Assembly: GCF_014268815.2 (NCBI RefSeq)
Contig: NZ_JABWRE020000001.1
Span: 3,415,001 to 3,479,000 of the forward strand
Origin: Pseudomonas urmiensis
GTDB taxonomy: Bacteria > Pseudomonadota > Gammaproteobacteria > Pseudomonadales > Pseudomonadaceae
Length of the DNA stretch: 64,000 nucleotides
Direction of reading: 5' to 3'
Numbering within the stretch: the first letter of the stretch is position 1; each line of letters begins with the position of its first letter. The position numbers and the translations under genes were made by a program. A model generated the notes under the pieces. The model did not search any database, was not told where the DNA came from, and saw only the letters and a list, made by a program, of their open reading frames with translations. Below, piece by piece: positions 46,849 to 57,833 of the stretch.

Positions 46849-49800
46849 TCAGACACTGCGAGCGGCCTGGTTATCCAGTTGCCGCTCAAGGTGTTGCATG
46901 GCCTGGCGCAGCGCCTGTACATCGGTGCTCAAGCGCTCACGGGCCAACGGCCGGCTAGCACAACTCTGCTCGACTTGCTCGCACAGCGCCACCAGGTGCA
47001 GGACACGGGCGATTCGCGCGCCGCCCTTGACCCGATGGGCAAGTTGGGCCAACTCCAAGGTATCTTCCGCGACCCGCTCCAGGCGTTGCAGGTCTTCGCG
47101 GTTACTGGTGCGCAAATCACCGAGTAACGCTTTCAGCGCTGCTTCATCCTTGCCCACCAAACGTTGTAGATGGTCCATATCCAACATCAAGGCATCTTCA
47201 TCGCTGGTATTGGCCCGGCAACTGGCCAGGGCTTGCAGCAGTTCTTCCAGCCCCAAGGGTTTGAACAGACAATCGTCCATGCCTGCCGCTTTGCAGCGGC
47301 GGCGTTCTTGTTCCTGAGCGTTGGCCGTCAGGCCGATCAGGCGGCATGCAGGCCTGCGACTGCGCCGCTCATGCTCGCGAATCGCTCGGGCCAGGGCATG
47401 GCCATTGAGCCGCGGCATGTTGCAGTCACTGATCACCACGTCGAAGTGTTCCTTTAGCCACAGGCGCAGAGCCTGGGCGCCATCTTCGGCGACCCGCGCC
47501 TGGTGGCCGAGGTAGTCCAGCTGCTGGGCCAGCAATAGCCGGTTGGCAGGATAGTCGTCGACCACCAGCACCCGCAGGCGCTCGCTGTCGGCGGGGGACA
47601 GCAGCACCGGCGTGTCCAGAGTGGGCTCGGCGGGCAGCACTGCCAGGCTCAAGCGGATATCCACCTCGGTGCCCTGGCCCAACACGCTGCGCAGGCGTAA
47701 GCGCCCTCCCATCATCTCGCACAGGCTACGACTGATACCAAGCCCCAGGCCAGCACTGCAACGCGGCGACTGTTGCTGATTGCTGGCCTGGCGAAACGGC
47801 TGGCCGAGCCCAGCCAACTCGGCCTCGGCAATACCGACCCCGGTATCCTTGATCTGCACTTGCACCGCCAGCCGGCCATCTCGCGGCACGGCGTTGAGGC
47901 TGACCGCCACATAGCCTTGGCGGGTGAATTTGATGGCATTGCTCAAGAGGTTGGCCAGCACCTGCTTGAACCGCAGTGGGTCAAGCATCACCTGCGCATC
48001 CACCTCGCCGTGCGTCTGCAAGCGCAGCTCCAGGCCCTTGCCACGCGCCTGCTGCTCGAACAACTGCACCACCCGCACCACCTGCTCGCGCAGACACACC
48101 CGCTGTGGCGCCAGGTGCAGATGACCCGCCTCGATACGGGTGATGTCGAGTATGTCGCCAATCAGCTCCAGCAAACCCCGCGCAGCATCGGTTGCCACTT
48201 CGATCGCCAGGCGGTCGAGCACACCTTGTTCAGCCTTGTGCTGGGCCAGCTCGAGCATGCCCAGCACTGCGTGCAGCGGGGTGCGGATTTCATGGCTCAT
48301 GGTGGTCAGAAAACGTGTCTTGGCCTGGTTGGCCGCATCGGCTTGCTGGGTGGCCCGGCGCAACTGAACTTGCAGGCGGCGCAGGTAGCGAATCCACATC
48401 AGCGCCAACAACAGCAACCCCAGTGCCAGGCCAAAGCCAAGCACGATCTTGCCGCGATAGCGCGGCCAGACGCCGTCGGCGACGATCATCGGGTTGCGCC
48501 AGCGACGCACCAGTACATCGGTCTCACGCGGCGCGAGGCTGAGCAAGGCTTTGTTGAGAATGCTCTGTAGCTCGACCGAACCTCGGGCACTGGCCAGGGC
48601 AAAGTGCGCTGGCGACATCGGCAAACTAGCACTGATGCGCAAACGCCCTGGATACCAGCGGGCAATCAGCGGGCGCGCGTCATCAAGGGTCAATACCGCT
48701 GCCGCGGCTTGGCCGCGCGCCACCGCCTGCAAGGCCGCTACCGGGCCGGGGACGATCAGCGGGTCGACCAAAGGATAGTGCTGTTTGAGTTCCTCCAGCA
48801 CATCGCTACCCCACACCGTTGCCAGCCGCTTTGCAGCCAATTGCGCCAGGCTGTTCGGCGCGTGTGGATCGTCGCGGGTTACCAGCACCCGCGAAGCGCT
48901 GAGATAAGCCCGACTAAACCGCAGGTGCTGCTCCAACGCAGCACTGCGAGGGATGCCGGCGATCACTTGCGCCTGGCCCTGACGCACCTGCTCGAGCATG
49001 CGCGCAACGCTGCCACCGGCCTCCACTTCAAAGCGCAGTCCAGTACGGCGGCTGATCAACTGCAGGATATCCAGGCTCAAGCCGCGCCACTGCGCTTTGC
49101 CATCGCGGTAGCTCAACGGCAGCAGGTGCTCGTCGAGCAACACCTTGACCGATGGGTTTTCGCTCAGCCAACGCAGCTCGCGCTCGTTCAGTTGTAGCGG
49201 TTGGGCCTTGTGCGTATTGGCCGACACTGGGCTCCAGCGTTCACGGATACGTGCATGCTGGCGCTCAGACAACGCCGCCAGGCCCGTGTCGACCAAGTGC
49301 GGCAAAGGTGAGTCAGCTTCGAGCATGGCAAAGCCGATGGCCTGGCGCGACAAGGCGGCGTGGCCGATTTCCTCGATCCCGCTCAATTGACTGCGCCCCA
49401 GCACATAGCGTGCGGTCAGGCCATTGCCCAGGTACAGGTCGGCCTGGCCGAAGGCCAACGCAGTCAGGGCGCTGAATGGACTTGGGTGCAAATGAACCCG
49501 GGCCAGCGGGTAATGCTCACTGACCTGCTCCTGGGTCCGATAGCCCTCGACCATCACCAGATCGAAGGGCTCGGCGCGACGGATGCGGGCGCGCAGGTCC
49601 TGTTCCTGGGCCATCAACAATGGTCGGTCTTCGCCATAAGGTCGCGACAGGCGCAGGTTCGCCTGCAACGCCTGCTGGGCGGTCACCGAGGCGAGCAGAT
49701 CGACCTGCCCATCGTGTAACGCGGCCACCGCCTCACTGAACGAGGCGAACACCTGCACGCTTATTTCAAGGTTCATCTGCTCGGCCAACAGCCCTGCATA

Positions 49801-50037
49801 ATCAGCGCTGATGCCCTCATAGGCCTGGCCGGTACCGAGTATGTCGTACGGCGGGTTCTCCCGATTGAGCACGCCCAAACGTAGCTGGCGCCGCTCCCAC
49901 AGCCAACGCAGTTGGCTGTTGTCGGGTTCCGGCCGGGGGCCATCGAGGCTGGCCCGGGCATGCAATACCGGGGCAGCGGCGACCGGCAACCACACCCAGG
50001 CACACCACACCGCCAGGAACAGGGCACTCAGGCGCAC
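46849..50037 (-). CDS. BvgS/EvgS-like hybrid sensor histidine kinase
   Basis: A 1062-residue unorthodox sensor: signal peptide (about 1-21), two periplasmic solute-binding (SBP_bac_3) domains (about 45-270 and 290-510), one membrane helix (531-549), HisKA with H582 (SHEIRTPLH), ATPase with N700 (NLLSNAIKF) and DTGVGI/GLGLGIS, receiver with D871 (ISDCNMP), and Hpt with H1001 (AHRVKGG). All phosphorelay residues are present. There is no PAS domain between the membrane helix and HisKA, unlike BvgS. The start is GTG 50037, 11 bases after the response regulator gene. It should sense a periplasmic ligand and control the linked fimbrial genes (inference), as CblS/CblT/CblR do for Burkholderia cable pili and RocS1/RocA1 for P. 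aeruginosa Cup fimbriae. Confidence 0.92.
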   Translation of the reverse strand: MRLSALFLAVWCAWVWLPVAAAPVLHARASLDGPRPEPDNSQLRWLWERRQLRLGVLNRENPPYDILGTGQAYEGISADYAGLLAEQMNLEISVQVFASFSEAVAALHDGQVDLLASVTAQQALQANLRLSRPYGEDRPLLMAQEQDLRARIRRAEPFDLVMVEGYRTQEQVSEHYPLARVHLHPSPFSALTALAFGQADLYLGNGLTARYVLGRSQLSGIEEIGHAALSRQAIGFAMLEADSPLPHLVDTGLAALSERQHARIRERWSPVSANTHKAQPLQLNERELRWLSENPSVKVLLDEHLLPLSYRDGKAQWRGLSLDILQLISRRTGLRFEVEAGGSVARMLEQVRQGQAQVIAGIPRSAALEQHLRFSRAYLSASRVLVTRDDPHAPNSLAQLAAKRLATVWGSDVLEELKQHYPLVDPLIVPGPVAALQAVARGQAAAAVLTLDDARPLIARWYPGRLRISASLPMSPAHFALASARGSVELQSILNKALLSLAPRETDVLVRRWRNPMIVADGVWPRYRGKIVLGFGLALGLLLLALMWIRYLRRLQVQLRRATQQADAANQAKTRFLTTMSHEIRTPLHAVLGMLELAQHKAEQGVLDRLAIEVATDAARGLLELIGDILDITRIEAGHLHLAPQRVCLREQVVRVVQLFEQQARGKGLELRLQTHGEVDAQVMLDPLRFKQVLANLLSNAIKFTRQGYVAVSLNAVPRDGRLAVQVQIKDTGVGIAEAELAGLGQPFRQASNQQQSPRCSAGLGLGISRSLCEMMGGRLRLRSVLGQGTEVDIRLSLAVLPAEPTLDTPVLLSPADSERLRVLVVDDYPANRLLLAQQLDYLGHQARVAEDGAQALRLWLKEHFDVVISDCNMPRLNGHALARAIREHERRSRRPACRLIGLTANAQEQERRRCKAAGMDDCLFKPLGLEELLQALASCRANTSDEDALMLDMDHLQRLVGKDEAALKALLGDLRTSNREDLQRLERVAEDTLELAQLAHRVKGGARIARVLHLVALCEQVEQSCASRPLARERLSTDVQALRQAMQHLERQLDNQAARSV

Positions 50038-50048
50038 CAGTAAGGCAT

Positions 50049-50675
50049 TCAGATGAGCAGGTTGCGGCGGGCGAAATCCGCCAGGTCGATCAGCGAGTTG
50101 ACCCGCAGCTTCTCCAGCAGTCGGGCCTTGTAGGTGCTGATGGTCTTGTTGCTCAGCAGCATCGCCTCGCCGATGGCTTTATTGCTCAAACCCCGCGCCA
50201 GCTGCTGCAACACCATCAGCTCGCGATCGGTGAGGCTGGCGATGCACTGGGCCTCGGTGGCCTTCAAGTCCTGGCTGTGAACCGAGCTCAGGGCCACTTC
50301 AGGAAAATAGGTATAGCCGGACATCACCGCGCGTACCGCCTTGTTCAGCTCGCAAAGGTCGTCGGTTTTCGACACGAACCCCGCAGCGCCGGCCTGCATG
50401 CAGCGCAGAGAGTAGGCCTCAGCCAACTGTGAAGTGAGCACCAGGGCCTTGGCCGGATACTCGAGCGTGCGAATCCTGCCGATCACATCCAGGCCATCGA
50501 GGCCGGGCATGGTGATGTCGAGGATTACCAGGTCAGGCCGGTGCTCGCGCACCAGGCGCAAGCCATCGATGCCATTGTCGGCCTGACCGACCACCTCCAG
50601 GTGCTCCTGGCGCAACAGCATGCAGACGGTGGAGCGGATGAACGGGTGATCATCGACGACCAAGGCGGTGTACAT
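50049..50675 (-). CDS. BvgA/EvgA-like response regulator (NarL/LuxR type)
   Basis: A 208-residue regulator: receiver domain about 1-120 with DD at 8-9, phospho-acceptor D53 (ILDITMPGLDG) and the conserved lysine in FVSKTDD, then a LuxR-type helix-turn-helix about 145-205 (LTDRELMVLQQLARGLSNKAIGEAMLLSNKTISTY). ATG 50675. It lies 29 bases after the adhesin gene and 11 bases before the sensor kinase gene, so the sensory pair is the tail of the fimbrial operon. It is the best candidate to bind the palindromic sites at 52742 and 56054. Confidence 0.93.
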   Translation of the reverse strand: MYTALVVDDHPFIRSTVCMLLRQEHLEVVGQADNGIDGLRLVREHRPDLVILDITMPGLDGLDVIGRIRTLEYPAKALVLTSQLAEAYSLRCMQAGAAGFVSKTDDLCELNKAVRAVMSGYTYFPEVALSSVHSQDLKATEAQCIASLTDRELMVLQQLARGLSNKAIGEAMLLSNKTISTYKARLLEKLRVNSLIDLADFARRNLLI

Positions 50676-50704
50676 AGGCTTCCTCGCTAGGCGGGCCGGC
50701 CAGG

Positions 50705-51919
50705 CTAGAGTTCGGCATCGAACACCACCGTGACTTGGCCGGTGTAGGTGCTGCCGGAATAGGCAAGCATACCGGGCACATCCGCTCGGCCGACTTCAAA
50801 ATGCAGCTGGCCGGGGCGATTGAGGGTGGGCATCGACGACTCGAATTGCAGCGCCGCCGCACGGCCTGACGGCAGCGCCAGGTGTTCGATGGGCCGGCCC
50901 TGGTAGTGCATACCGGGCGGCAAGCTCAAGGCCACTTCGACCGGGACCTGATGCCCGTTGTCATTGACGATGCCACAGCGCACGTCGGTATAGTGCTGGC
51001 ACAGCTTGTAGACCTTGAACGGGCCGGTCGACCACAGCCGGAACGGCAGGTCACGGTAAAGCTTGGTTGGGGCTTTGCCGCCGGCCAGCCAGGCGCTCCA
51101 GCCGCCTTTGGGTTCGAGTACGGCCCGATCAGAGCCAGGCGGGAACTCGAAGATAAAGGCGTGCCGCACGTCCAGCACAAAATTGACCGTAAGCGAATTA
51201 CCGCTGAGCGCGCTGACATCGTTGCCGAAGTCAAAGTCGGCGCCAGCACCCATTGAGTAGGTGATGCTGCCGCGATAGGTACCCGCGCGCATTTGATAGG
51301 GCGGCGGCACGACCAGGTCATAGGCAATGCTGGTTTCCAGGACCTCTGCATCCACCACCTTGCCAACAGCAGTCCGCCAATTGAAACTCCAGCAACCTTG
51401 TGGCGACTGCGGGTCTCTCACCCTCCACAAGTACATGACCCAGGCAGGACTGTATTGTGAATTGTAGGCACCACCGCCACAACCTCCGCTCAGCGTTCTA
51501 TAGAATAGAGGGTGATCCTCATCCAGCGAGCCATCGATCTGTACACGCTGACTGAGTGACGTCCACTCCAGCGTCGCCGTGCGCGATTCGCCTGTCTGGT
51601 CGTTATAAATGTTCACTTGCCGTCGACCGGGTAACTGAATGAAATAGTTGTCCCGAGGATCCGGCGCGTGACCGGTAGTCTTCTTGTTGTAGGTAATTGG
51701 AAGATCGACAGTGGTCATTGTTTTACACCGGGATGGCCAGTAACGGCAAAGTCCTCCTGGGGGCGTGGTGTTGTCGAAACGCCCTGAGCCACCCCCGAGG
51801 TATTCGGCGGTAAGTGTCACTTCCAGAGCCTGGGCTGCTGGCCAGGCAAGCGCCAATAGCAGCGCACCTCCCAGTTGTGCAGCTCGGCGCATGGCCCGGA
51901 TCGGCTGGAGCAGGCTCAT
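50705..51919 (-). CDS. CS1-type fimbrial tip adhesin (CfaE/CblD-like)
   Basis: A 404-residue exported protein with a signal peptide (about 1-31, cut after AQA). Length and place after the chaperone gene fit the two-domain minor adhesin of CS1/CFA/I-type pili: an N-terminal receptor-binding domain (about 32-220, six or more cysteines) and a C-terminal pilin domain (about 225-404). The ATG at 51919 overlaps the chaperone stop by four bases. GC content is clearly lower in the part encoding the N-terminal domain (about 45-55% in sampled rows) than in the C-terminal part (about 70%). The sequence is too divergent to say what it binds. Confidence 0.72.
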   Translation of the reverse strand: MSLLQPIRAMRRAAQLGGALLLALAWPAAQALEVTLTAEYLGGGSGRFDNTTPPGGLCRYWPSRCKTMTTVDLPITYNKKTTGHAPDPRDNYFIQLPGRRQVNIYNDQTGESRTATLEWTSLSQRVQIDGSLDEDHPLFYRTLSGGCGGGAYNSQYSPAWVMYLWRVRDPQSPQGCWSFNWRTAVGKVVDAEVLETSIAYDLVVPPPYQMRAGTYRGSITYSMGAGADFDFGNDVSALSGNSLTVNFVLDVRHAFIFEFPPGSDRAVLEPKGGWSAWLAGGKAPTKLYRDLPFRLWSTGPFKVYKLCQHYTDVRCGIVNDNGHQVPVEVALSLPPGMHYQGRPIEHLALPSGRAAALQFESSMPTLNRPGQLHFEVGRADVPGMLAYSGSTYTGQVTVVFDAEL

Positions 51920-52674
51920 CCTTCCACCACCATTTGCTTGCGTTCACTGCCTTCGTGCAACTCGAACTGATGTACCTTGCCCACTTGCCCGTCGAACTGC
52001 CGGCTACGCCCCGGCAGCAAGTGGTGCTTGGTCGCCGGCTCGCAGCCCTGCTCCGCTGCCTGACATTGGCGGAAATGATCGAGCACCACAGTTGTGTTGC
52101 CTTCGTTAGCCACCTGCAGTTGGCCACCTTGGCGTTTCACAGGGGTTTGGAAGCGCGTTTCGGCGGGGCGCACGAACAAGATCGAGCCGTATCCGGCCAG
52201 CAGGTTGACCCCCACCTTGAGGCTGTCGCGGTACTGCTGGGCCTCTTGCTCATTGACCGCAAAGCCATCGCCGGACTCTGGCAGCACTGGCACGAAGCGC
52301 AGGCGGAAGTAGCGTTCCTTGTCCCGTGAACCGCGATACAGCAGGCGCACCGCCTGCATCCCCTGGGCCGGCACGATCAGCCGTGCAGGGCTGGCGACCA
52401 GGCCGCGCTGCTTCAAGGGCAGGCCATCGGTGTCGATCTCGCGAGGCTCGCCATCGGCGTCATAGACCAACTCGGCGACGCTGATCTTGACGAACGCGGT
52501 AGTGTCGCCGCCATTGCGCACGCGTTTAAGCAAGGTGCTCTTGCCGCTGTCGAGATAATCGTACAGGGCGCCGACATTGAGCTCGGGCGCGGCGCGCGAT
52601 GCCAGCGGGGTGATCAGCAGGGTCAACAGGATCAGCCTGGGAAGGGTCATGTTTATGGGTCTCTTTTTCGACAT
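51916..52674 (-). CDS. CS1-type fimbrial periplasmic chaperone (CfaA/CblB-like)
   Basis: A protein of about 252 residues with a signal peptide and the two-domain immunoglobulin-like fold of pilus chaperones (PARLIVPAQGMQAVRLLYRG, the strand that contacts subunits; LLPGRSRQFDG near the end). It donates a strand to subunits in the periplasm and hands them to the usher. Start ATG 52674, or ATG 52650 (MTLPRLILL), which gives a more usual signal peptide. A palindromic 15-bp motif lies 68 bases upstream, suggesting its own promoter. Confidence 0.82.
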   Translation of the reverse strand: MSKKRPINMTLPRLILLTLLITPLASRAAPELNVGALYDYLDSGKSTLLKRVRNGGDTTAFVKISVAELVYDADGEPREIDTDGLPLKQRGLVASPARLIVPAQGMQAVRLLYRGSRDKERYFRLRFVPVLPESGDGFAVNEQEAQQYRDSLKVGVNLLAGYGSILFVRPAETRFQTPVKRQGGQLQVANEGNTTVVLDHFRQCQAAEQGCEPATKHHLLPGRSRQFDGQVGKVHQFELHEGSERKQMVVEG

Positions 52675-52741
52675 AACGAGAGTATTGATACCGTGGCGTT
52701 GATGGCTATGGCCTAGGTCGCGGGATGCGTCCTAAAACCAG

Positions 52742-52756
52742 TTCGGAAATTTCCCA
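52742..52756 (-). promoter_or_regulatory. Candidate response-regulator site upstream of the fimbrial chaperone gene
   Basis: On the minus strand TGGGAAATTTCCGAA, with the perfect palindrome GGAAATTTCC. The identical 15 bases occur in the same orientation at 56054-56068. The symmetric half-site TTTCCNA resembles the BvgA heptad (TTTCCTA/TTTCTTA as inverted repeats). It starts 68 bases before the chaperone ATG. Confidence 0.55.
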
Positions 52757-52800
52757 AGTGCTGTTCTGAAATGGGTGATTGCGTTGAGTGCATAGGCGCC

Positions 52801-52874
52801 AGTGCCGGCGTCATCGCGGGGCAAGCCCGCTCCCACGGCTTTTTATCTTCCTTGTCCCGCGTAGAGCCGGCACT
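52801..52874. repeat. Incomplete REP doublet after the usher gene
   Basis: A complete left REP (ATCGCGGGGC, AAGCCCGCTCCCACG) and a shortened right arm (CTTGTCCCGC without the GGGAGCGGG part), flanked by matching outer ends AGTGCCGGC and GCCGGCACT. It ends four bases after the usher stop, between usher and chaperone genes. Confidence 0.8.
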
Positions 52875-52877
52875 GAC

Positions 52878-55373
52878 TCAACCGCGCCGGTTACCCGCAA
52901 CATCGCCCACTCCAGCCAGACTCGCCGGGCTACAGGTTTGATCCCCGGCCAGCACCACGTCGCCTTCGCGCTCCAGTGCCAGCAGGTCGAAACTGAGCAG
53001 GCAAGCCGCCGCGCCATGCTGGTGAACCTCCAGGCTCGGGGTCGCTTCACTCATCTCTACGGCGAAGAAGCCATCGGCTTCGCTAACCGTGCGGCTGGCG
53101 TGATTGATCACCTGAGCCCCACGCAGCGGCCGGCCCTTGGGGTCAATCAAGCGGCCTATCACCGTCACCGTGCGCAGTACGCGCAGTTGTCGATAGGCAA
53201 TCCCGCCGCGGTTGAGGTGGTAATCGAGGCTCGAAGGCTGGATCACCGCAGCAGTCGCCTCGCTGCCTTCAAAATCGAACTGCACATGGCCAGCCTTGTA
53301 GGCCGCCACCGGAATCACGTTGCGCCCTGGGCGTAGGTTGGCGGTGCTGCCGTTGGGGTCGTCGGCGCGCAGTTGCAGGCCGGGCAGGTCTGTCTCGACA
53401 TCGACGATCAAACCGGCCTGATGCGGCAGGTACTGGCCACTCAAGGCGGCCTTGCCGTCGCCTACGGCAAGCAGGCTTTCCATGTTCAAGCCACCCGTGA
53501 ACTCGCCGTTGTACGAGGAGCGCTGAACATAGGCATCGCCATGCACTACCTGGTTTTCAAACTGCGTGTCACCGCCCAGCCCTACCCCATAACGGTCAGC
53601 GCTGGCGGTCATGCCAAGGCTGCGCAGTGGGCCGATGTCGACGTCTTGCTGGTAGGCCAGCGAAGCGTTGAGGTCGCGCCCGCCGTCGCGTGAGGTACGT
53701 GTACCGAGACTGGCCGACACCCGCCGCCCGCCCTCACCCAGGCTCATGCTCAAGCTCAGATTGACCCCACGACTGCGCGCATCGCCGGTGCCGGCGGTGC
53801 CTGGGCGGTCGAACAGCGACAGGCGCCAGTTGGCGTCCGAGCCCATCACCCGACCGAAGTACGACCAGCCCAGATCGAGCCCCATGCCGGCACTGGCGCC
53901 GCTGCTGTGGGAGATGCGCAAGCTGGCGGTGTTGCGTGGATCGAGGCGATGGTTGAGTGACAGCGAAGACTGCGTCTGGCGCTGCACGAATGCCGCGCCA
54001 CGTGCCTCACGCGGGCGTGATAACCATGAGCGGCTGTGGCTGGCGACCAACGAGCCACTGCCATAGCTGTGAATCGCCTGCAGATCGTAGCCGCTGCCGT
54101 AATCCTGGGCCTGGTAGACATTGGAGTAGAGCTTGAAGCGGTCGAGCACGTCCCAATCCAGCGAGGTGCCGTATTGCATCATCTGGTCGATACGCTGGGC
54201 CGACAGACCAACAATCGCCCGTGGGTGCAGCAGGTAGTTGGCCAGCACGCCAGCGCTGAGGCTGTCGTCGTGGCCGCGCTCCCAGTTGCTCAGCAGGCTG
54301 CTCTGCCGGCCTAGATAGACGTTGTAGCGCCACGGCGCATCGGTACTGCGCCAGTTGCTGGGTTTGTAGATGAATTCCTGGCTGCGCGAGGTGACTTGGC
54401 CGTCCTCGACCAGGCGCACTTCGATTTCATAGATGCCACCGGGCAGCACCTTGGTATCGAGCGTCTGCAAGCCCGGCTGGACAGGCTGACTGTTGATCAG
54501 CACGCCGTTGCGGTAGATCTCCGCCACTGCCGGGCGGTCTGGGGTGACGTAGATCGGTGTGGCGCTGGGCGCGCCGTTGTCGATGGCCAGGCTGTCGCTG
54601 CTGCCAAACATCAGGCCAAGGGTGGTATCGGGGCTGGTGCCCATCAGCCGTGGCTGGCGGGTCAAGCCTTGGGCGCTGGGGGTGAAGTAGCCCAGGCGGT
54701 AGAAGTTAGCTTCGACCAGACGCTCGGCGTAGAGCTGGTCGAGGCGATAGCGGGTGCCTTGCTCGCTGTCGCTGCCACGGTCGAGCTGACCATCGGCCAA
54801 GGCGGTCCAGTTACCAATGCTGCCTTGGCCCTGCATGGCATAACGGCCGGTGGTACCGTGGCCATCGCCGACCAGGTTGAGTTGATTGCGCAGCAGCAAG
54901 CCATAGCTGCCTTGTTCTGGCAAGTGGTGAAAGCGTTCGATTACGCCTGCCACTTCGGCCTGACGGGTGAGCAGCGACAGTTGCGAATTGACCAGGCTGT
55001 AGTGCACTGCACGCAGCCCGTCCGGGCAATCGACTTGGCAGTCTCCCAAGGGGCGGCCAGCGGCTAGGCGTTCGCGCCACAACTTGCGCAGGCGCTCGGG
55101 CTCGCGGCTCTCTTGAGTGTCGGTGAATTCGAGCAGTTGCACCTGCTGGTCACGGCTGAGCACGACCATGGCATCGCCCAGGTAACGACCATCCAGATCG
55201 ACCCGCACCGCTAAAGGCACATCGAAAAAATGCGCCTCGAACTCGCGCGGCAGGCCATCGATACGGCCCAATGTCGTGGCCGCCGCCAACGACCAGAACG
55301 GCGCAGCAGTCAAGCAGGCAGCCAGGGGCCACCAGCGGCGCAGCGAAGCGAAGATGGAGTCAGTGATTGGCAT
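52878..55373 (-). CDS. CS1-type fimbrial outer-membrane usher (CfaC/TcfC-like)
   Basis: An 831-residue outer-membrane usher with a signal peptide (cut near AAA, about residue 31), an N-terminal domain, a large beta-barrel (about 150-640) and C-terminal domains, including a carboxypeptidase-like segment (VIGRLIDPKGRPLRGAQVIN). Plug-region motif VYVTPDRPAVAEIYRNG-like (IYVTPDRPAVAEIY). It secretes and orders subunits at the cell surface. I chose ATG 55373 (MPITDSIF); a TTG at 55436 is unlikely. The 94-base gap to the subunit gene has a hairpin (CCCTCG/CGAGGG) that could lower usher expression relative to the pilin. Confidence 0.85.
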   Translation of the reverse strand: MPITDSIFASLRRWWPLAACLTAAPFWSLAAATTLGRIDGLPREFEAHFFDVPLAVRVDLDGRYLGDAMVVLSRDQQVQLLEFTDTQESREPERLRKLWRERLAAGRPLGDCQVDCPDGLRAVHYSLVNSQLSLLTRQAEVAGVIERFHHLPEQGSYGLLLRNQLNLVGDGHGTTGRYAMQGQGSIGNWTALADGQLDRGSDSEQGTRYRLDQLYAERLVEANFYRLGYFTPSAQGLTRQPRLMGTSPDTTLGLMFGSSDSLAIDNGAPSATPIYVTPDRPAVAEIYRNGVLINSQPVQPGLQTLDTKVLPGGIYEIEVRLVEDGQVTSRSQEFIYKPSNWRSTDAPWRYNVYLGRQSSLLSNWERGHDDSLSAGVLANYLLHPRAIVGLSAQRIDQMMQYGTSLDWDVLDRFKLYSNVYQAQDYGSGYDLQAIHSYGSGSLVASHSRSWLSRPREARGAAFVQRQTQSSLSLNHRLDPRNTASLRISHSSGASAGMGLDLGWSYFGRVMGSDANWRLSLFDRPGTAGTGDARSRGVNLSLSMSLGEGGRRVSASLGTRTSRDGGRDLNASLAYQQDVDIGPLRSLGMTASADRYGVGLGGDTQFENQVVHGDAYVQRSSYNGEFTGGLNMESLLAVGDGKAALSGQYLPHQAGLIVDVETDLPGLQLRADDPNGSTANLRPGRNVIPVAAYKAGHVQFDFEGSEATAAVIQPSSLDYHLNRGGIAYRQLRVLRTVTVIGRLIDPKGRPLRGAQVINHASRTVSEADGFFAVEMSEATPSLEVHQHGAAACLLSFDLLALEREGDVVLAGDQTCSPASLAGVGDVAGNRRG

Positions 55374-55467
55374 GAGCGTCGCTTGCAGGCAATACCCACC
55401 CCTCCCCTCGACAGACGCCGAGGGCAAGGAGGGCAATAACGGATGGGTTAACGGATGAGCGTCAGGC

Positions 55468-55947
55468 TCAAGGCGCAGCGGTCTCGAACATCATGCTGAC
55501 CAGCCCCTGATAGCTGCCTGGCTCATAGCCGGCTGCCGGTGCTGGTTGGGCACTGACCTCAAAGCCGATGATCGCGCCTGGGGCGGCCTGGGCAGCGCTG
55601 ACCACCTCGGCCGGCGTGGTTTTCAACACGGTGTCGCCAACTTTGACATCCAGGCCAATGTTGTGGGCACCGCTGGCGATGACCGCTGGCGACACCAGGT
55701 AGGCGCTGATCGGGCCGATAGTGCTCTTGACCTGCAGTTGCTTGGTGATCGGGTCGAGCCTCTCTTGGTACGAGTTCCAGCTCATCTCCTGTGGGTCATT
55801 CATCCAGTTGCCGCCTACCGGCTCGACGAAAAAGGCTGCGGTGGGGATCTGAGCAGTGACCTGGACCTGCTTCTCGATCGGGTCAATGGCAAAAGCCGAA
55901 GTGGCGCAGCACATGGCCAGAGGAAGGGCGAATAACGTACGTTTCAC
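55468..55947 (-). CDS. CS1-type major fimbrial subunit (CfaB/CblA-like)
   Basis: A 159-residue exported pilin. Signal peptide cut after AFA (residue 20), then IDPIEKQVQVTAQIPTAAF, which matches the N-terminal donor strand of CfaB and CblA (VEKNITVTASVDP). The C-terminus GSYQGLVSMMFET is likewise typical. The mature protein lacks cysteines, as in class 5 pilins. It is the first gene of the operon and has the AAGGAG ribosome-binding site 12 bases before ATG 55947; the 221-base region upstream holds a palindromic regulatory motif. Confidence 0.85.
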   Translation of the reverse strand: MKRTLFALPLAMCCATSAFAIDPIEKQVQVTAQIPTAAFFVEPVGGNWMNDPQEMSWNSYQERLDPITKQLQVKSTIGPISAYLVSPAVIASGAHNIGLDVKVGDTVLKTTPAEVVSAAQAAPGAIIGFEVSAQPAPAAGYEPGSYQGLVSMMFETAAP

Positions 55948-56053
55948 GAATCTGATCTCCTTGAAGGGCTAATGCCTGCCGGGCGATTCCCGGTCAGCAA
56001 GGAGATTATTCAGGGTCGATTCGTCGCGATGAGTAAGACCGTTCCGAGCGGGC

Positions 56054-56068
56054 TTCGGAAATTTCCCA
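56054..56068 (-). promoter_or_regulatory. Candidate response-regulator site upstream of the major pilin gene
   Basis: Second copy of TGGGAAATTTCCGAA (minus strand), 107-121 bases before the major pilin start, a distance similar to that of the primary BvgA site at the fha promoter. See 52742-52756. Confidence 0.55.
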
Positions 56069-56124
56069 GCGACCTCAAAACGCCATCAAACTGGCTTGCA
56101 AGACAGGTCAGCCATTCACAAACG

Positions 56125-56151
56125 ACAACGCCCCGACTAGCGGGGCGTTGT
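56125..56151 (-). terminator. Terminator hairpin after actP
   Basis: Perfect 11-bp stem ACAACGCCCCG/CGGGGCGTTGT with a five-base loop, 18 bases after the actP stop. The T-run is weak (CGTTTGTG), but the stem is strong, so a terminator is likely. Confidence 0.75.
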
Positions 56152-56168
56152 GGCATTGCAGGCAAGGG

Positions 56169-57833
56169 TTAGTGGGAAACCGCGCCACTGGCACCCAGGC
56201 CAGTCTGCGAACGGACGAACTGCGGGAAGAACAACGCACGCTCGTTTTCAGCTGCCTTGGACTTGTCGGTGACCGAGAAGAACCAGATACCGACGAAGGC
56301 GATGATCATCGAGAACAGCGCGGGGTACTCGTACGGGTAGATGGCTTTCTCATGACCGAGGATCTGCACCCAGATGGTTGGGCCAAGGATCATCAGGCCC
56401 ACTGCACTGACCAGGCCCAGCCAGCCGCCGATCATGGCGCCGCGGGTGGTGAGTTTCTTCCAGTACATCGAGAGCAGCAGTACCGGGAAGTTGCAGCTGG
56501 CGGCAATGGAGAAGGCCAGGCCGACCATGAAGGCGATGTTCTGCTTCTCGAACAGAATGCCCAGGCCGATCGCCAGTACGCCCAGCGCGATGGTGGTGAT
56601 CTTCGAGACGCGGATCTCGTCCTTGTCGTTGGCCTTGCCTTTGCGCCAGACGCTGGCGTACAGGTCATGGGATACCGCCGAGGCACCGGCAAGGGTCAGG
56701 CCAGCGACCACCGCCAGGATAGTGGCGAAGGCCACCGCCGAGATGAAGCCGAGGAAGATACTGCCACCCACGGCATCGGCCAGGTGCACCGCCGCCATGT
56801 TGTTACCGCCCAGCAACGCGCCAGCGGCGTCCTTGAAGTCTGGGTTGGTGCTGACCAGCAGGATCGCGCCGAAGCCGATGATGAAGGTCAGGATGTAGAA
56901 GTAGCCGATGAAACCGGTGGCGTACAGCACGCTCTTGCGCGCTTCCTTGGCGTCGCTGACAGTGAAGAAGCGCATCAGGATGTGCGGCAGGCCAGCGGTA
57001 CCGAACATCAGTGCCAGGCCCAGGGAGAACGCCGAGATCGGGTCTTTGACCAAACCGCCCGGGCTCATGATCGCTTCGCCTTTGGCGTGCACCTTGATCG
57101 CTTCGGTGAACAGGGTGTTGAAATCAAAGCCCACGTGCTTCATCACCATCAGCGCCATGAAGCTGGCACCCGACAGCAGCAGCACGGCCTTGATGATCTG
57201 TACCCAGGTGGTGGCGAGCATGCCGCCGAACAGCACGTACATGCACATCAGGATGCCGACCAGGATGACCGCAACGTGGTAGTCCAGGCCGAACAGCAGC
57301 TCGATCAGCTTGCCCGCGCCGACCATCTGCGCGATCAGGTAGAAGGCCACTACCACCAGCGAGCCGGACGCCGACAGGGTGCGGATTTCCTTTTGCCCGA
57401 GGCGATACGAGGCCACGTCGGCGAAGGTGTATTTACCCAGGTTGCGCAGGCGCTCGGCGATCAGGAAGAGAATGATCGGCCAGCCGACCAAGAAGCCGAT
57501 CGAGTAGATCAGGCCATCGTAGCCGGAGGTGAATACCAGGGCGGAAATCCCCAGGAACGAGGCTGCCGACATGTAGTCACCGGCAATTGCCAGACCGTTC
57601 TGGAAACCGGTGATCTTGCCGCCGGCGGCATAGTAGTCGGAGGCTGATTTGTTGCGTTTGGACGCCCAGTAGGTAATCCCCAGGGTGAACAGGACGAAGG
57701 CCAGGAACATGACGATGGCAGACATGTTGAGCGGCTGTTTCTGCACCTCGCCGGTGAGCGCATCAGCGGCCCACACAGCGGGTGCAAAAACGCCGCAGGC
57801 CAGGACGGCCAGGGCTTTGGCTTGGCGGATCAT
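56169..57833 (-). CDS. actP: Cation/acetate symporter
   Basis: A 554-residue sodium:solute symporter with an N-terminal signal-like helix and about 13 membrane helices, closely following the ActP pattern ([42 protein letters not shown]). It takes up acetate and similar short acids. The start (57833) overlaps the yjcH stop by four bases. In P. aeruginosa the same order yjcH-actP lies next to betX. Confidence 0.95.

Follow-up and report, generated by a model that had tools for sequence, protein, structure and literature searches.

The window analysed here, i.e. the whole 64,000-nucleotide (64 kb) stretch at positions 3,415,001 to 3,479,000 of Pseudomonas urmiensis contig NZ_JABWRE020000001.1, contains a CS1-type fimbrial gene cluster in which the same 15-mer, TGGGAAATTTCCGAA, stands on the minus strand at 52742-52756, upstream of the chaperone gene, and at 56054-56068, upstream of the major pilin gene. 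We propose that each 15-mer would form the distal, high-affinity half of a paired operator recognised by the cluster's own response regulator (50049-50675), and consider it highly probable, judging from sequence, that this neighbouring BvgA/RocA-type regulator binds both pairs and activates the fimbriae and, as predicted, itself. The identity, uniqueness, conservation and spacing of the sites and their gene neighbourhood, on which the proposal is built, were observed directly in the DNA.

Occurrence of the 15-mers

An earlier, sequence-only reading of this DNA had reported the two 15-mers at these positions and had proposed a count of them across the genome. A scan of the window found both in place, and the count, run on the 5,786,335-base genome, returned two exact matches to TGGGAAATTTCCGAA, both in the fimbrial cluster, and none for the reversed-pattern control. 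Allowing up to three mismatches gave six matches in the window, two of which are the same sites on the other strand, compared with a mean of 0.93 in 100 shuffles of the window, none of them at six. At the same tolerance the 16-mer TTCGGAAATTTCCSAA is at chance level genome-wide (61 strand-matches versus 54 in the control), and at zero or one mismatch it picks out the two fimbrial sites alone; its next-best places, two with two mismatches, lie inside long coding frames that we take, from their sequences, to resemble sthA and pnp. The 14-mer TRGGAAATTTCCTA gave 30 strand-matches genome-wide with up to two mismatches versus 16 in the control, and three with one mismatch, i.e. the two fimbrial sites and one place inside long open frames. 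A wider regulon in the P. urmiensis genome was considered and set aside: 21 places matching TRGGAAATTTCCTA were checked, the intergenic ones having weak partners, and the seven near-match places inspected adjoin unrelated genes, so that no further targets are claimed in this genome.

The core GGAAATTTCC, which the sequence-only reading had singled out, is indeed a perfect palindrome; the better unit is, however, the 14-mer TGGGAAATTTCCGA, in which the inverted heptads TTTCCGA and TTTCCCA, each matching TTTCCTA at 6/7, meet with zero spacer. The same reading treated the 15-mers as two single sites, and whilst both are real, a second, weaker copy lying 21/22 base pairs (bp) downstream of each had been overlooked.

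Predicted paired operators and promoter layout

Sites were scored against the consensus TAGGAAATTTCCTA, which is the published heptad TTTCCTA symmetrised and was not derived from the window, and a match of at least 11/14 was called a site. At the pilin promoter the predicted distal (strong) operator, TGGGAAATTTCCGA (56055..56068, minus strand), matches this consensus at 12/14 and is joined at 21 bp by a predicted proximal (weak) operator, TCGGAACGGTCTTA (56034..56047, minus strand; 9/14), giving a composite of 21/28. The identical 14-mer forms the predicted distal operator of the chaperone promoter (52743..52756, minus strand), where a weak second operator, TAGGACGCATCCCG (52721..52734, minus strand; 8/14), is predicted at 22 bp, for a composite of 20/28. 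These are the only two pairs in the window that score at least 20/28 at 21/22-bp spacing; when spacings of 15-44 are admitted at that threshold, 29 and 41 also yield one match each.

The spacing recurs in related loci. Over 37 aligned sites, +21 was the best offset for a second copy, with a mean match of 7.3/14 against 3.4 (standard deviation 0.7) at other offsets, and 21 or 22 was the best offset for pilin (n = 23), chaperone (n = 10) and regulator (n = 4) promoters taken separately. We also examined the best 80 of 535 relatives, split by gene content into 35 window-type and 45 Roc-like loci, with four loci lacking a pilin or usher match (L179, L180, L187 and L189) included in the window-type set and two with CS1-like genes (L246 and L247) kept in the Roc-like set. 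Composites of at least 20/28 at 21/22 bp number 43 in the window-type, 78 in the Roc-like and 0 in 40 regulator-less loci, and 0 in the reversed-sequence control of each. Counts over spacings of 15-44 peak at 21-22, with 31 and 13 composites respectively in the window-type and 26 and 56 in the Roc-like loci.

Downstream of the pilin operators a -10 element, AATAAT, is predicted at 56005..56010 (minus strand). In 20/22 pilin promoters a -10-like hexamer starts 58/59 bases from the beginning of the distal site, ties between hexamers having been broken towards offset 58 and one of an original 23 promoters (L072), whose site had been mis-picked at 19 bp, having been dropped; the hexamer is AATAAT in 14 of the 20. 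In the other two promoters it starts at 37, 21 bases less, as if the proximal site had been picked. Offset 58 also has the highest mean -10 score in pilin promoters when no hexamer is picked (5.5 versus a mean of 1.8, standard deviation 0.8), but not in chaperone promoters, and the four regulator promoters have a -10-like hexamer at 60. A 17-bp spacer would put the start of the -35 slot at offset 35-36, directly after the proximal site (21-34); in the window the predicted slot is the non-consensus CTCATC (56028..56033, minus strand), 17 bp upstream of the -10-like hexamer and abutting the proximal operator. For the chaperone promoter a possible -10, AATACT (52681..52686, minus strand), is weak, and its position is not conserved among relatives. 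A sigma-70 consensus scan of 50000-56300 found no promoter (shuffles mean 1.1), a result that fits activator-dependent promoters with a poor -35, yet is no evidence for them.

Conservation of the sites across usher loci

Of the 398 genomes sampled from the genus, 205 gave an usher match and 193 did not. From the 205, 80 usher loci in 79 genomes were selected manually, first the top 40 in approximate order and then 40 less similar ones, mostly on long contigs; together with the window they make 81 loci covering 80 of the 205 usher-bearing genomes, the remaining 125 being outside the sample; this set and the 80 relatives described above share many genomes and are not independent.

The sequence-only reading had suggested aligning the upstream regions of homologous clusters, and when this was done the site proved to be kept in most regulator-bearing clusters and to be almost lacking from the examined clusters without the regulator. 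In the 250 bp before a pilin, usher, chaperone or regulator gene, 25/28 loci with the regulator have a site versus 5/53 without. When only sites 50-200 bp ahead of pilin, chaperone or regulator genes are counted, a range that was set after the wider-range counts had been seen, the figures are 26/29 versus 1/52 with no regulator in the locus, one locus (L069) having been moved to the regulator-positive group when its regulator was found upstream of the fetched stretch. In the sole regulator-less exception, L088, another part of the genome encodes a 67%-identical regulator, whose gene has the same 14-mer about 116 bp before it. Related species keep sites in both promoters with different spellings, and the site moves with the genes when gene order changes, as in L069/L252, where the regulator gene lies on the other side of the pilin gene.

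When pilin promoters were aligned on the site, nine central columns carried 1.6-1.9 bits and the region 4-20 bases upstream about 0-0.2 bits. Because each promoter was represented by its highest-scoring match at or above 11/14, part of the core conservation follows from the way sites were picked; no such selection was applied to the +21 copy or the -10. The near-zero flank values show that the pilin promoters are otherwise unlike each other.

Genes preceded by the pairs

Pairs of at least 19/28 occur within 260 bp upstream of 28/30 pilin, 15/31 chaperone and 9/35 regulator genes in window-type loci, the 28 pilin pairs lying 97-156 bp upstream, and upstream of none of the usher (0/29), adhesin (0/31), kinase (0/24), actP (0/25) or short-chain dehydrogenase/reductase (SDR; 0/24) genes. 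In all, 57/63 pair positions in these loci could be assigned to a gene. In L079, L080, L085 and L087 a site lies 154-166 bp before the regulator gene. Pairs before regulator genes are what autoregulation predicts.

Some loci depart from this arrangement. In L179 and L180 (P. sp. GM84 and P. plecoglossicida) the regulator and kinase genes stand beside actP with a pair before the regulator, and the retrieved stretch contains no pilin or usher match; these loci may represent an orphan switch or one with targets elsewhere. Between the actP and SDR genes of L257 (7619-7643, genome G081) the fimbrial cluster is missing and a 13/14 site remains; the 11 bases that follow it are the same as in the L061 pilin promoter, apparently a deletion scar. 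Strong pairs at 21 bp were also seen at the 3' end of the kinase gene in L255 (1300-1334, genome G043; 12+11 of 14) and L256 (9189-9223, genome G249; 12+12 of 14), and no 11/14 site stands before the pilin genes of these two clusters.

Roc-like loci and other genera

Regulators of the 45 Roc-like loci are 57-65% identical to that of the window. With a trimmed EAL query, 37/45 of these loci have an EAL gene on the strand of the regulator, and the pair is directly upstream of it in 30/37, the EAL genes without a pair being those of L223, L225, L227, L229, L241, L242 and L250; a direct assignment of composite positions to genes placed only 18/101, the EAL query having begun too early. PapD/Usher-type fimbrial genes are present in several Roc-like loci, and there are examples with an autotransporter gene or additional EAL genes. 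In one of them a pertactin/autotransporter gene (L206:15838-18175) is preceded by a strong pair (13+11 of 14, 21 bp) and is likely, from its position behind these putative operators, to encode a co-regulated adhesin.

Beyond these loci, the intergenic region between rocR and the regulator gene in P. aeruginosa record CP109682 has matches of 12/14 and 8/14 at 22 bp, and records from Pantoea, Cupriavidus and Burkholderia ubonensis show sites of 11-12/14 upstream of regulator genes. The B. ubonensis site lies about 190 bp before a second regulator gene, has the same 14-mer as the window, TGGGAAATTTCCGA, and is accompanied by a weaker copy at 22 bp; on a P. lurida plasmid (L260) a pair lies 1.5 kb from the regulator gene. 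The chances seem to us evenly balanced that BvgA/RocA-type regulators across Beta- and Gammaproteobacteria would share an ancient code of inverted TTTCCTA heptads, set without a spacer and recurring at 21-22 bp intervals as far as the -35; that neither an Enterobacter record annotated evgA (L263) nor a Rahnella record (L259) has a pair counts against such a family-wide operator code. If it is true, regulons comprising fimbriae, autotransporters, EAL proteins and the regulators themselves could be predicted from sequence, and paralogous systems within the same cell would share operators, making insulation and cross-talk a general problem.

Genes of the cluster and a proposed mechanism

All six genes of the cluster lie on the minus strand, in the order pilin, usher, chaperone, adhesin, response regulator and sensor kinase. 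The first two are a CS1-type major pilin (55468..55947; PF04449, E 1.8e-22) and a CS1/CooC-type (CooC/TcfC) outer-membrane usher (52878..55436; PF16967 and PF15976), a combination that places the fimbria in the CS1-type (alternate, alpha) class. The fimbrial chaperone (51916..52674) was assigned by position and has homologues in related clusters of varying gene order, and the tip adhesin or minor subunit (50705..51919) was likewise assigned by position; neither has a Pfam or NCBIfam match at E 0.001, and this branch of the CS1-type alternate fimbriae may be poorly modelled.

The regulator predicted to be the ligand of both operator pairs (50049..50675) is a NarL/FixJ-type response regulator of the EvgA/RocA/BvgA kind, with PF00072 and PF00196; the sequence-only reading had called it BvgA/EvgA-type. 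Its best match among solved structures is EvgA (5f64), and it is 56% identical to the regulator beside rocR in CP109682. Used as a DNA query against E. coli genomes, the regulator gene returned no match. Next to it is an unorthodox sensor kinase of 1062 residues (46849..50037) with SBP_bac_3 in two stretches, HisKA, HATPase, REC and Hpt, whose periplasmic part matches BvgS (4q0c) at E 1.8e-76. Together these two, a NarL/FixJ-type regulator and a Venus flytrap (VFT)-sensor unorthodox kinase, form a system of the BvgAS/EvgAS type.

Chaperone and adhesin genes overlap by 4 bases and are followed by gaps of 29 bases to the regulator and 11 bases to the kinase gene. Given such short gaps, the second promoter probably heads a unit of four genes; the chaperone-adhesin unit of the sequence-only reading thus has its own site upstream but runs on into the regulator and kinase genes, and positive autoregulation is predicted as a consequence. 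That reading also held that pilin and chaperone-adhesin expression are controlled separately. A site does stand before each unit, but four terminator-like sites were found in 50000-56300 (shuffles mean 4.5) and none between usher and chaperone, and read-through from the pilin promoter is therefore possible. The sequence GGCAAGCCCGCTCCCAC, at 52820-52836 between these two genes, resembles a repetitive extragenic palindromic (REP)-type repeat of the sort common in the P. putida group.

In the mechanism that we propose, the BvgS/EvgS-like kinase would phosphorylate the regulator, two dimers of which would occupy the same face of the DNA at a distance of 21-22 bp, and the promoter-proximal dimer, next to the poor -35 element, would recruit RNA polymerase. 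The pilin promoter would then drive pilin and usher, and the second promoter chaperone, adhesin, regulator and kinase, the last two closing a positive autoregulatory loop. Binding by this particular regulator, the need for phosphorylation, activation and the promoter elements are all predicted components of this scheme.

Alternative explanations

Several findings weigh against this proposal. Amongst loci with the regulator, the site stands before the pilin gene in only 21/28 and before the chaperone gene in 10/28, and three such loci (L071, L083 and L084) lack an 11/14 site in the expected places; L190, which appears to come from the same genome as L071, has a weaker pair (10+9) where one would be expected. 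At the looser composite threshold of 19/28, 3/40 regulator-less loci score too, and on a FastTree tree of the ushers the regulator state changes only three times, giving 2-3 independent pairs and putting significance out of reach. The -10 of chaperone promoters is at no conserved distance. Pfam at E 0.001 gave no PAS match in the window kinase, which we therefore describe as BvgS/EvgS-like and not as BvgS proper; a PAS match is present in the Roc-like kinase of L205. Furthermore, three other regulators encoded in the genome match EvgA with scores as good as that of the cluster regulator, and could share the site.

These last bear on a rather unlikely alternative, in which the sites are operators of this regulator family but a paralogous EvgA/RocA-like regulator is their main ligand in vivo, or several cross-talk. 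Besides the equal EvgA scores, the two paralogues compared in this respect (L141 and L142) share the SNKTVSTYK stretch of the recognition-helix region; the in vitro motifs of RocA1, RocA2 and RocA3 are reported to be highly similar (PMC12051241); and L088 has a site, while no regulator was found in its cluster or in two adjoining stretches that were retrieved. Two paralogue regulators have 10-11/14 sites about 105-125 bp upstream, too weak to call. Against such a ligand, sites follow the neighbouring regulator through rearrangements (L069/L252; L179 and L180), and the regulator-less clusters examined are mostly without a site. It would be more surprising still if the sites bound an unrelated global regulator, or were recombination or structural palindromes, that merely resemble BvgA sites: AT-rich perfect palindromes suit many regulators, but there are exactly two copies in the genome, the pairs occur in loci of one regulator family and, at the same threshold, in none of the 40 regulator-less fimbrial loci, and both the 21-22 bp phasing and the abutment of the -35 are of the BvgA type. 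We give almost no credence to the idea that the copies reflect a recent duplication or chance and have no function; identical 15-mers only 3.3 kb apart might suggest this, but their flanking sequences differ, and the retention of both sites, differently spelled, in related species contradicts it. Activation by the neighbouring BvgA/RocA-type regulator hence remains the explanation that we prefer.

On that explanation, a regulator and a full, albeit predicted, promoter plan can be assigned to a CS1-type fimbria found in many Pseudomonas species, which we take to belong to the Pseudomonas putida group, and adhesion is predicted to be under a self-reinforcing, possibly all-or-none switch. The findings also suggest that the operator geometry established for BvgA in a single pathogen can guide the search for targets of BvgS/RocS-like systems in environmental bacteria.

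Comparison with known systems

A literature search with GGAAATTTCC, Pseudomonas and response regulator retrieved no paper, and no title or abstract beginning amongst the related listings concerned the cluster; the main text of PMC8041468 makes no mention of RocA1, PA3948, RocA2, PA3045 or BvgA. PMC7250471 gives the primary BvgA site at fha as TAAGAAATTTCCTA, which TGGGAAATTTCCGA matches at 11/14, and describes BvgA dimers bound head-to-head, 22 bp apart, the nearest abutting the -35. The resemblance to BvgA sites that the sequence-only reading had pointed out accordingly extends to half-site sequence, zero-spacer inversion, 21-22 bp phasing and, at the pilin promoter, the place next to the predicted -35; the contrary idea that BvgA arms run oppositely (TTTCC...GGAAA) was dropped, the printed fha site running the same way as that of the window. 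Like BvgA operators of Bordetella pertussis, those predicted here have inverted TTTCCTA-type heptads with zero spacer and a strong distal and a weak proximal site at 21-22 bp, the proximal one abutting a poor -35 (here in silico, at pilin promoters). Unlike them, they comprise two dimer sites, compared with three at fha and six at ptx, their half-sites are TTTCCGA/TTTCCCA, and a spacing of 21 is commoner than 22 in window-type loci.

The Roc systems of P. aeruginosa (RocA1 with cupC and lepBA; RocA3 with cupB and its own gene) share with the window a 56% identical regulator, a kinase with SBP domains alongside and a paired site, there between rocR and the regulator gene. Fimbrial targets and autoregulation have been reported for Roc: according to a published re-analysis (PMC12051241), RocA1-3 have the roc1, cupB, cupC and lepBA regions in common among their in vitro targets, and RocA3 activates its own gene. 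The target here is, in contrast, a CS1/alternate fimbria and not CupB/CupC, and the regulator and kinase genes directly follow the adhesin gene. No EAL domain was found among the ten proteins scanned around the site, and the cluster is hence not a Roc system as such, whilst operator and regulator are of the same kind.

With the CS1/CFA fimbriae of enterotoxigenic E. coli the cluster has in common a CS1-type pilin and a CooC-type usher. E. coli CS1-type fimbriae are reported to be activated by Rns, an AraC/XylS regulator with one activator site beside the -35 and a second, distal one (PMC9820224), as in the arrangement predicted here. Rns is, however, encoded elsewhere, whereas the predicted activator in the window is a two-component response regulator within the cluster, and this control, if true, is a different solution from Rns for the same fimbrial class. 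The predicted operators are of a known, BvgA-type kind, newly applied here to CS1-type fimbriae.

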